A DNA stretch of 64,000 nucleotides from Geothrix paludis (GTDB lineage Bacteria; Acidobacteriota; Holophagae; Holophagales; Holophagaceae): the NCBI RefSeq assembly GCF_022808815.1, contig NZ_JAKZLC010000003.1, positions 186,001-250,000 of the forward strand. Direction: 5' to 3'. The translations under genes and the position numbers were made by a program. Position 1 is the first letter of the stretch; each line of letters starts with the position of its first letter. Of the stretch, positions 23,963-26,900 are shown piece by piece. The notes beneath the pieces were generated by a model. It saw only the letters and a list, made by a program, of their open reading frames with translations, was not told where the DNA came from and did not search any database.

Positions 23963-26900
23963 ATGAGTGTTCAGCAGAACATCTACCGCCAGCGCCACAA
24001 CTTCTCGAAGATCCGGTCCCTGGTCCCCATCCCGAACCTGATCGACATCCAGAAGCGGAGCTACGACGAGTTCCTCCAGATGAACCTGCTCCACAGCGAG
24101 CGGGAGTCCCGCGGCCTCAAGGCCGTGTTCGAGTCGATGTTCCCCGTGCACAACGGCAAGAACGCTGATGGCACGGACGCCACCCTCGAAGTCGAGTTCC
24201 TCGACTACACCGTGGGCCACTGGGCCTGCAAGTGCGAGAAGTACCTGGGCCTGGAGCACCTCCGCACCCAGTGCAAGCAGTGCGGCCACAGCATCGTGTC
24301 GGACCACCCGAAGGATCCCACGGTGGACTGCCCGAAGTGCGGCACCCGCAACAAGAACGCCGCGACCATCTGTGACGTGTGCCAGGAGCCCGTCTCGATG
24401 AAGCAGAAGATGGGCATGGACGAGTGCGTCGAGCGCGGCGCCACCATGGCCGCCCCCCTGAAGATCCGCGTGCGCCTCAACCAGTTCGACAAGGACGACA
24501 AGGGCAACCGGCGCTTCAAGCAGAGCCAGGATTCGGAAGTCTACTTCGGCGACCTGCCGATCATGACCGACCGCGGCACCTTCATCATCAACGGCACCGA
24601 GCGCGTGATCGTGAGCCAGCTGCACCGCAGCCCCGGCGTCTTCTTCAGCATCGCGCCGGACAAGAGCCTCTACAGCTCCCAGATCATCCCCTACCGCGGT
24701 TCCTGGATCGAGTTCGAGCTCGACTCCAAGGGCCTGCTCTACGCCCGCATCGACCGCAAGCGCAAGTTCCTCGGCGCCACCTTCATGCGCGCCCTGGGCC
24801 TGTTCAGCGAGGATCTCGGCTCCAACGAGACCATGCTCCGCCACTTCTACGCCCCCGCCACCTTCTTCCTCAAGAAGGGCAAGCTGAGCGTGGCCGTGAG
24901 CGAGCTGCTGGTGGGCCGCAAGCTCGGCGAGGCCGTGAAGCACCCCAAGACGAAGGAAGAGATCCTCGCCAAGGACAAGAAGATTACCCGCCGTGTCCTC
25001 GAGCAGATGGAGAAGGCGGGCATCAAGGATGTGCCCGTGGAGCGCGAGATGCTCGACGGCGCCGTGCTGCTGCAGGACATCGTGAACATGGGCACCGGCG
25101 AAGTGCTCATGGAGGCCAACGAGCCCTTCCTCCAGACCCACCTGGAGATGTTCCTGGCCAACGATGTGCAGTCCTTCGACGTCTGCTTCCCCGAGGCCGA
25201 CCTCACCGGCAAGATCTTCTCCGAGACCCTGGCCAAGGATCACACCGAGGACAGCGAGGAAGCCGCCAAGGAGCTCTTCAAGAAGATCCGGCCCGGCGAG
25301 CCCGCCACGCTGGAATCCAGCAAGAAGCTGCTCTACGGCATGTTCTTCGACCCCCAGAAGTACGACCTCAGCAAGGTGGGCCGGCACAAGATCAACGCCA
25401 AGCTGGGCCTCAGCACCGACCTGGACTTCCGCACCCTCGGCACGGACGACTTCGTCCAGACCGTCCACTACCTCCTGCGCCTGAAGAAGTACGACACCAC
25501 CCGCCAGGACATCGGCGAGATCGCCCCCGTGCGCGCCGACGACATCGATCACCTGGGCAACCGCCGCGTGCGGTCCGTGGGCGAGCTGCTGGAGAACGGC
25601 TTCCGCGTGGGCTTGGTGCGCGTGCAGCGCGCCATCAAGGAGAAGTTCAGCATCGCGCAGGATCCCAACAGCCCCCTGCAGGCGCACGACCTGATCAACA
25701 GCAAGCCCGTCATCGCGGCCATGAAGGAGTTCTTCGGCAGCAGCCAGCTCTCCCAGTTCATGGACCAGACCAACCCGCTGTCCGAGATCACCCACAAGCG
25801 CCGTCTCTCGGCCCTCGGACCGGGCGGCCTCAGCCGCGACCGCGCGGGCTTCGAGGTGCGCGACGTGCACACCTCCCACTACGGCCGCATCTGCCCCATC
25901 GAGACGCCTGAAGGCCCGAACATCGGCCTCATCAGCTCGCTCTCCTGCTACGCCCGCATCAACGAATTCGGCTTCATCGAGAGCCCCTACCTGAAGGTGG
26001 AGAACGGTCGCATCGTCCACTTCGCCAAGGTCACCAGCGTGGGCGACTCCAAGTTCGGCTACATGGACGTGGTCCGCCTGGAGGACCTGGAAGCCGAGAA
26101 CAAGAAGCTGACCAAGGCCGGCAAGCGCGCCGCCAAGTTCGAGATGCATGCCTTCTACCTCTCCGCCTGGGAGGAGGACGAGCACGTCATCGCGCAGGCC
26201 AACGTCCCCGTGGACGCCGAAGGCGCCATCCTCGACGAGGACGTGACCGTCCGTGTCGCCGGTGAGACCAAGATCGTCGCCCGCGACAAGGTCACGCTCA
26301 TGGACGTGAGCCCGAAGCAGGTGGTCTCCGTCGCCGCCAGCCTCATCCCCTTCCTCGAGAACGACGACGCCAACCGGGCCCTCATGGGCGCCAACATGCA
26401 GCGCCAGGCCGTGCCCCTCATCCGCACCGAGGCCCCCATCGTGGGCACGGGCATGGAGTACGTGGCCGCCAAGGATTCCGGCGCCTGCGTGGTCTGCCGC
26501 CGCTCCGGCATCGTCGAGACCGTGGACGCCAACCGCATCGTGGTGCGCGTCGAGGATGATCCGGACACCGAGGGCATCGAGTCCGGGGTGGACATCTACA
26601 CCCTGGTGAAGTTCGCCCGCAGCAACCAGAACACCTGCCTCAACCAGATGCCCCTCGTGAAGAAGGGCGAGTACGTCACCGAGGGCCAGATCCTGGCCGA
26701 CGGCCCCTGCACCGACCACGGCGAGCTGGCCCTGGGCCGCAACCTGGTCGTGGCCTACATGCCCTGGCGCGGCTACAACTTCGAGGACGCGATCCTGATC
26801 TCCGAGCGCGTGGTGAAGGAAGACCTCTACACCACCATCCACATCGAGGAGTTCGAAGTCCACGCCCGCGACACCAAGCTGGGCCCCGAAGAGATCACCC

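Follow-up and report, generated by a model that had tools for sequence, protein, structure and literature searches.

Does the β subunit of RNA polymerase in Geothrix paludis carry a zinc domain of its own and, if so, how is this domain built, where did it come from and what might it do? Few enzymes have been studied as much as RNA polymerase, whose lineage-specific insertions can decide factor binding; Acidobacteriota are abundant in soil and little studied biochemically. The question is raised by the rpoB gene in the stretch of DNA analysed here (the window, 64,000 nucleotides in length). This gene (window positions 23963..28357, plus strand) encodes a protein of 1464 amino acids, scoring 1702.7 bits against the NCBIfam equivalog profile TIGR02013 (cut-off 801.15), and the protein is thus a bacterial RpoB. 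The rpoC gene for the β' subunit lies downstream (28400..32623, plus strand). Residues 86-148 of RpoB (24218..24406, plus strand) hold eight cysteines, C89, C91, C104, C107, C123, C126, C137 and C140 (nucleotides 24227-24382), which form four knuckles on the plus strand: A (C89-x-C91, 24227..24235), B (C104-x2-C107, 24272..24283), C (C123-x2-C126, 24329..24340) and D (C137-x2-C140, 24371..24382). Knuckles A and B are joined by a conserved stretch, W87...G96-[LIV]-x-[HNY]-L-R101 (24221..24265, plus strand).

Two further features of the locus may be recorded here. Another C-x-x-C of RpoB, C842-x2-C845 (window 26486-26497), is distant in sequence from this segment. An antisense open frame of 2985 amino acids (minus strand, window 23672-32629) spans the whole of rpoB-rpoC and is probably a by-product of composition.

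We compared the segment with β subunits of other bacteria. It is absent from E. coli β, where the flanks continue unbroken as Y73-R-L-G76-E-P-V-F-D-V-Q-E-C85, so that about 61 residues of RpoB are extra; the net gain falls between G76 and V79, at the position of G76-E77-P78-V79. When RpoB 1-566 was searched against the PDB, 53 β-subunit sequences were matched and none of their 53 listed best stretches fell within the segment. Where a best stretch starts in this region, its start is at query 144-153; the three alignments shown pass over the segment, from query 64 to 148 or 152. These comparisons reject the possibility that the segment is an ordinary part of RpoB. An earlier note on this DNA, made from the letters alone, had claimed an insertion of about 60 residues between flanks that lie close together in ordinary RpoB proteins, and both statements hold. 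The site belongs to uD1 (E. coli β 1-152, the insert being at 76-79) and corresponds to the β1-lobe of Thermus nomenclature, equivalent to the protrusion of RNA polymerase II, as named in passages of PMC4593161 and PMC4593229. RpoB 86-148 is therefore confirmed as a genuine insertion with eight cysteines on the β1-lobe (protrusion). The note had placed it on the β lobe near DNA; this is correct for the β1-lobe, on the upstream side of the bubble according to a passage of PMC4593161, but not for β2, the usual "lobe".

Next, we examined how widely the insert is distributed. A search with RpoB 1-266 matched 278 of 297 Acidobacteriota genomes and 251 of the 297 were read, the other 46 comprising 19 without a match and 27 with a match that was not fetched or aligned. 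Rows left out before counting were those of G302 (N-terminus of rpoB unreadable), G305 (readable from C107 on only), L185 and L186 (not aligned) and E. coli. All eight cysteines are present in 235 of the 251 RpoB sequences, six retain a partial set, two have a shrunken insert and eight lack it, so the insert, shrunken and partial ones counted, is found in 243. At least one intact copy occurs in 74 of the 78 families with reads, the exceptions being f4, f34, f53 and f58. Conservation of all eight cysteines in 235 genomes means that they are not a product of chance, and their being kept together there and across 74 families points to strong selection. The phylum-wide alignment proposed in the earlier note has thus been carried out, and a trait restricted to Holophagae is rejected, since the insert is spread across the phylum sample.

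In a scan of relatives' contigs, seeded with the insert and therefore mute on its absence, the best 80 of 565 relatives all have the eight cysteines; a list of this extent does not exclude other phyla. Titles among these 80 include Thermoanaerobaculia, Bryobacterales, Solibacter and Terriglobia, and 78 of the 80 bear titles of Acidobacteriota or of groups which we take to belong there. Two genomes are titled otherwise, L177 (G297) as Betaproteobacteria and L181/L378 (G298) as Verrucomicrobia, and both carry rpoB of acidobacterial type.

Several deviating sequences deserve mention. The two shrunken inserts, L092 (G206) and L093 (G125), show no cysteine pattern; L093 retains G-L-x-H, similar to the conserved stretch between knuckles A and B. 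Family f53, devoid of the insert, has the canonical G-[DE]-P-K-Y form at this place. Genome G118 (contigs C118 and C192) has an rpoB-like frame that matches across the insert and a second such frame with a split match that lacks it, which reflects contamination or a second copy. In G302 (L379), the rpoB sequence ahead of the conserved GMTYSV, which should encode the N-terminal part, is unreadable in every forward frame, owing to misassembly or deletion.

Outside the phylum, the insert profile was run on 288 genomes of the phylum to which the Verrucomicrobia-titled assembly is assigned, at most 16 first-look candidates being scored per genome. The RpoB insert was found once, with 195 bits; no other match, of whatever kind, exceeded 27.8 bits. 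This single case, L181, sits on a contig of 4,342 bases, and the same assembly has an insert-less rpoB beside rpoC. We read the insert-bearing contig as contamination and reject a transfer to Verrucomicrobia on these two grounds.

For the history of the insert, a quick tree of 98 rows was calculated (LG+G4, 197 columns, insert columns excluded) and rooted on E. coli and a Verrucomicrobia-labelled rpoB, both outgroup rows being long branches. Nine changes between the complete set of eight cysteines and any other state are required. All rows with a partial cysteine set, both shrunken rows and the insert-less f53 are nested in insert-bearing groups. The other insert-less rows are those of f4 and two of the four f30 rows; they form one group with the two intact f30 rows, and this group (five insert-less and two intact rows) stands at the unresolved base alongside intact families. 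The simplest reading of this rough tree suggests that the insert was gained before the phylum radiated and was then repeatedly lost or eroded. How old it is and how often it was lost are uncertain, given the basal position of the f4/f30 group, the long outgroup branches and the state of the inner branches, 43 of 95 being open and 19 of 95 starred.

Lineages which have lost only some of the cysteines allow us to ask how the eight are paired. In family f34 (12 genomes readable at all eight positions) the changes are C89S, C91S and C137D, the other five cysteines being retained, so that knuckles B and C are intact in all 12 despite the loss of A. In genome G059 of family f26 the change is C89S, and position C137 has no aligned residue; the other f26 genomes are intact (4 of 5 read). 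In family f6, G255 has C89S, C91D and C137S, and G003 has C104S, C107A and C126T with C89, C91, C123, C137 and C140 retained; the other genomes of this family keep all eight (5 of 7 read). Each of the four independent partial losses thus hits exactly two knuckles, either A and D or B and C, and the damage is confined to {89, 91, 137, 140} or to {104, 107, 123, 126}. If pairs of knuckles were hit at random, four events would agree on one of the three possible pairings with a probability of 1/27 (simple arithmetic), the lineages behind this figure being few because G255 and G003 share one family. General saving of zinc is rejected as the cause of these losses, since the four zinc cysteines of RpoC are all present in seven genomes whose insert is damaged or absent (G001, G003, G055, G059, G125, G156 and G309); in the same check, G044 has one unread residue and the contig of G206 ends before these cysteines.

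The loss pattern probably favours two nested sites, an outer one shared by knuckles A and D and an inner zinc ribbon shared by B and C, over a first site C89/C91/C104/C107 followed by a second ribbon. Two AlphaFold models of RpoB 68-175, both weak (mean pLDDT 64 and 69), are compatible with this arrangement. A hairpin encloses knuckle B in both models and a second one encloses C; model 2 extends the host strands as far as residue 21 and takes them up again at 78, beside knuckles A and D. Foldseek gave no match under E 0.001 in the PDB for either model, and VIA Z values are at most 4.3, a level that according to the tool can reflect a mere common arrangement. The B-C part superposes on LysW (37 residues, 2.0 Å, Z 3.0), the TAB2 NZF (28 residues, 1.6 Å, Z 2.7), Parkin (34 residues, 1.4 Å, Z 2.5) and HOIP (34 residues, 1.4 Å, Z 2.3), all of which we take to be single-zinc ribbons. 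The top VIA match of model 1, covering approximately the whole insert, is the zinc-knuckle domain of methionyl-tRNA synthetase (Z 4.3, 55 residues, 3.9 Å); this match is weak, it does not recur in the VIA list of model 2, and no sequence link between this domain and the insert was seen.

Profile matches can be found for two overlapping parts of the cysteine array. The B-C part matches archaeal Rpo12 (E 2e-4), LysW (0.0065) and TFIIB (0.077). In line with this, the inner part, C104-C126, has two C-x2-C knuckles that match ribbon profiles and form hairpins in the two weak models, and it resembles the single-zinc ribbons of Rpo12, TFIIB, LysW and NZF by profile and, for LysW, weakly by model; unlike them, it is nested in another cysteine pair and set into RpoB. 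The C-D part matches L40e, DZANK1 (6e-9) and fission-yeast Rpb12 (2.3e-4, as strong as Rpo12 for B-C). Against Pfam DZR, the cut-out segment scores 28.6 bits (cut-off 27.3) and the whole RpoB 15 bits, below the cut-off. The motif C-P-x-C-G-x-x-N is common to DZR, DZANK1, L40e, Rpb12 and C123-C140 of the insert, but the pairing within the insert, as judged from the losses, would differ from that of these proteins.

There is also a likeness to the zinc-binding domain of the β' subunit. Its core in the same genome, W62...C82 (28583..28645, plus strand), has cysteines C64, C66, C79 and C82 in the arrangement C-x-C-x12-C-x2-C, exactly as in knuckles A and B, and in both proteins a tryptophan stands two residues upstream of the first cysteine, just as the earlier note had pointed out. 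The W-x-C-x-C and the C-x-x-C-G therefore occur at the same x12 spacing in both, the RpoB insert differing in its location in the other large subunit and in having eight cysteines. The first 30 residues of the insert were used as a profile against 177,635 PDB sequences, and the five best matches are RpoC zinc domains (whole-sequence E 0.010-0.035, per-stretch E 0.026-0.093). Comparison of the insert with the RpoC zinc domain by hhalign gives 97% over 26 columns. At E 0.001 the insert profile has matches in 172 of the 288 genomes of the other phylum; the commonest among those listed runs from model positions 17-19 to 52-55 and lies in long frames that have the length and place of RpoC, and three such matches that were read are RpoC.

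How far this likeness extends beyond the knuckles themselves was assessed by shuffling, with a random 30 of 230 insert segments set against 12 RpoC segments. Over all non-cysteine positions, none of 2000 shuffles reaches the observed likeness. The fraction is 0.0045 when W and E are left aside and 0.083, not significant, when the two knuckle glycines are left aside as well. The resemblance is thus real and, as the remaining excess is not significant, rests mostly on W-E-C-x-C-G and C-x-x-C-G. It could reflect a shared knuckle style rather than descent. Against the likeness stands a search of the own genome with the first 30 residues of the insert, in which RpoB itself was the sole match at E up to 10 and RpoC did not come up; the VIA rows of the two models contain no RpoC chain either, which is not evidence against the likeness.

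Taken together, these results make it fairly probable that the insert is an old, nested, two-zinc insertion domain of Acidobacteriota, seated in the β1-lobe hairpin and having a structural docking role, with zinc, pairing and age deduced from sequence. The best surviving alternative differs in its account of origin. Knuckles A and D would be an RpoC-like finger whose loop received a ribbon B-C of the Rpo12 or LysW kind, giving a nested and partly RpoC-descended domain. The resemblance of A to the first RpoC knuckle, the alignment of D with the second one (hhalign, 42%) and the Rpo12 and LysW matches of B-C would be explained in this way; the match of D is weak, though, and the gapless alignment of A-B with RpoC at the same spacing would be left to chance. 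We regard this alternative as possible, with the odds against it. The same tentative standing is given to the fuller proposal that part of the β' zinc domain was copied into β, where an inserted Rpo12/LysW-like ribbon opened it, in a single gain near the root of Acidobacteriota. If this were true, the acidobacterial enzyme would have a second zinc module, on the β1-lobe near the upstream bubble.

Sequential pairing is unlikely. It holds that C89/C91/C104/C107 form an RpoC-type finger, copied from rpoC 4 kb downstream, and that a ribbon of the double-zinc-ribbon type, distinct from this finger, is made by C123/C126/C137/C140. The identical spacing with W-x-C-x-C, the five best PDB matches, the hhalign value and the RpoC-like matches in the other phylum (the commonest listed, three of them read as RpoC) all agree with the first site, and the matches of C-D to L40e, DZANK1, Rpb12 and DZR agree with the second. 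None of the four partial losses respects this division, however: each of the four lineages would have had to break both sites, and in the same crosswise way, and in f34 knuckle B is intact in every readable genome after the loss of A. The losses pair C89/C91 with C137/C140 and not, as in an RpoC-type site, with C104/C107. Moreover, the weak models put B and C in one ribbon, the likeness to RpoC is no longer significant once W, E and two glycines are left aside, and the own-genome search did not return RpoC. Of what the earlier note had proposed, two zinc sites are probable, but the losses favour nesting over its RpoC-type site with a ribbon behind it; in the profile comparison that it had suggested, the likeness to RpoC found support in the PDB matches, the hhalign value and the matches in the other phylum but not in the own-genome search or in the excess outside W, E and the two glycines, so that its derivation of the segment from RpoC is no more than possible.

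Returning to the nested domain that we prefer, its working parts may be pictured as follows. The insert is set into the β1-lobe (protrusion) hairpin at E. coli β 76-79; C89, C91, C137 and C140 would serve as an outer clasp that staples its ends where they leave the host hairpin, and the tip would be formed by an inner zinc ribbon of C104, C107, C123 and C126. The best candidate for a working surface is the stretch W...L-x-G-[LIV]-x-H-L-R between A and B. Among 280 distinct rows with eight cysteines, W87 and G96 are each present in 278 and R101 in 262, and W...L-x-G-[LIV]-x3-R is found also in the nine partial-loss rows listed. Since this stretch is kept where zinc cysteines have been lost, it is selected apart from zinc and is a candidate contact surface. 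Judged from its location only, it may contact protein or DNA near the bubble's upstream edge and thereby tune initiation or factor binding. The domain would be useful but not essential, because several lineages do without the insert.

The location also raises the possibility that the ribbon directly holds upstream promoter DNA and so, as part of the enzyme, stands in for a factor of the CarD kind; we consider this improbable. Passages of PMC4593161 and PMC4593229 place the β1-lobe close to the upstream part of the bubble, and it binds the RID of CarD, whose fold is shared with the RID of Mfd/TRCF (PMC4593161). In the genome of the window only one CarD/TRCF-domain match is present, and its frame, of 1143 amino acids, has the length of Mfd, which would suit such a substitution. 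One match is likewise found in 23 of 27 sampled genomes of its family. Yet two or more such matches occur in about two thirds of the sample of 297, and nearly all genomes read have the insert. Two matches are found in 9 of 10 insert-less or shrunken genomes and in 6 of 6 partial-loss genomes of the sample, but the same holds for about two thirds of all 297, so an obvious trade-off with CarD is rejected, and no clear link between insert state and number of CarD/TRCF-domain matches was seen over the 297 genomes. The net charge of the insert (mean +1.5, sd 2.4) is compatible with protein or mild nucleic-acid contact and, being so small, provides no argument for DNA binding.

The strand which in E. 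coli carries I117-K118-E119, the Mfd contact, reads FKQSQDSE at RpoB 185-192 (window 24515-24538), in a genome with one CarD/TRCF-domain match, as against IRDIKEQE or IRDIKEEE in many of the other acidobacterial sequences read.

It is extremely improbable that the insert is a zinc-free scaffold relic, retained in the living cell by inertia only: its absence, shrinkage or damage in several lineages and the two remnants L092 and L093 would fit such decay, but that all eight cysteines are retained jointly by 235 of 251 genomes, and in 74 of 78 families, speaks for strong selection.

Finally, the insert was compared with known insertions in the enzyme. A 2024 survey, in the parts relevant here, lists β insertions at five sites, from uD2 to uD5 and with none in uD1, and omits insertions under 50 residues without database likeness (PMC11515920); the insert is missing from these insertion sites, and the word "zinc" does not occur in the main text of that paper. 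The E. coli insertions β-i4, β-i9 and β-i11 are located away from the insert site, and in the passages concerned Acidobacteria or Acidobacteriaceae are named only for these three (PMC2939025). Like these and like BEAN and HABAS, the insert is a domain of a core subunit that follows lineage; BEAN lies in uD2 or uD3 of β and the insert in uD1, which on a comparison of location alone separates the two. Titles and abstract openings of the literature searched gave no description of the domain. The numbering in Lane and Darst 2010 reportedly implies inserts N-terminal to β-i4, and the insertion may be catalogued there. The earlier note knew of no description of such a domain, which agrees with the site list of the survey but may not stand against the 2010 catalogue.

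The complementary losses of cysteines in the outer and inner sites amount to a natural experiment, which makes the pairing of zinc testable. If the preferred reading is true, a two-zinc domain common to most of the phylum, situated on the lobe that CarD and Mfd bind, would serve both as a marker of Acidobacteriota and as a new regulatory surface of their RNA polymerase.
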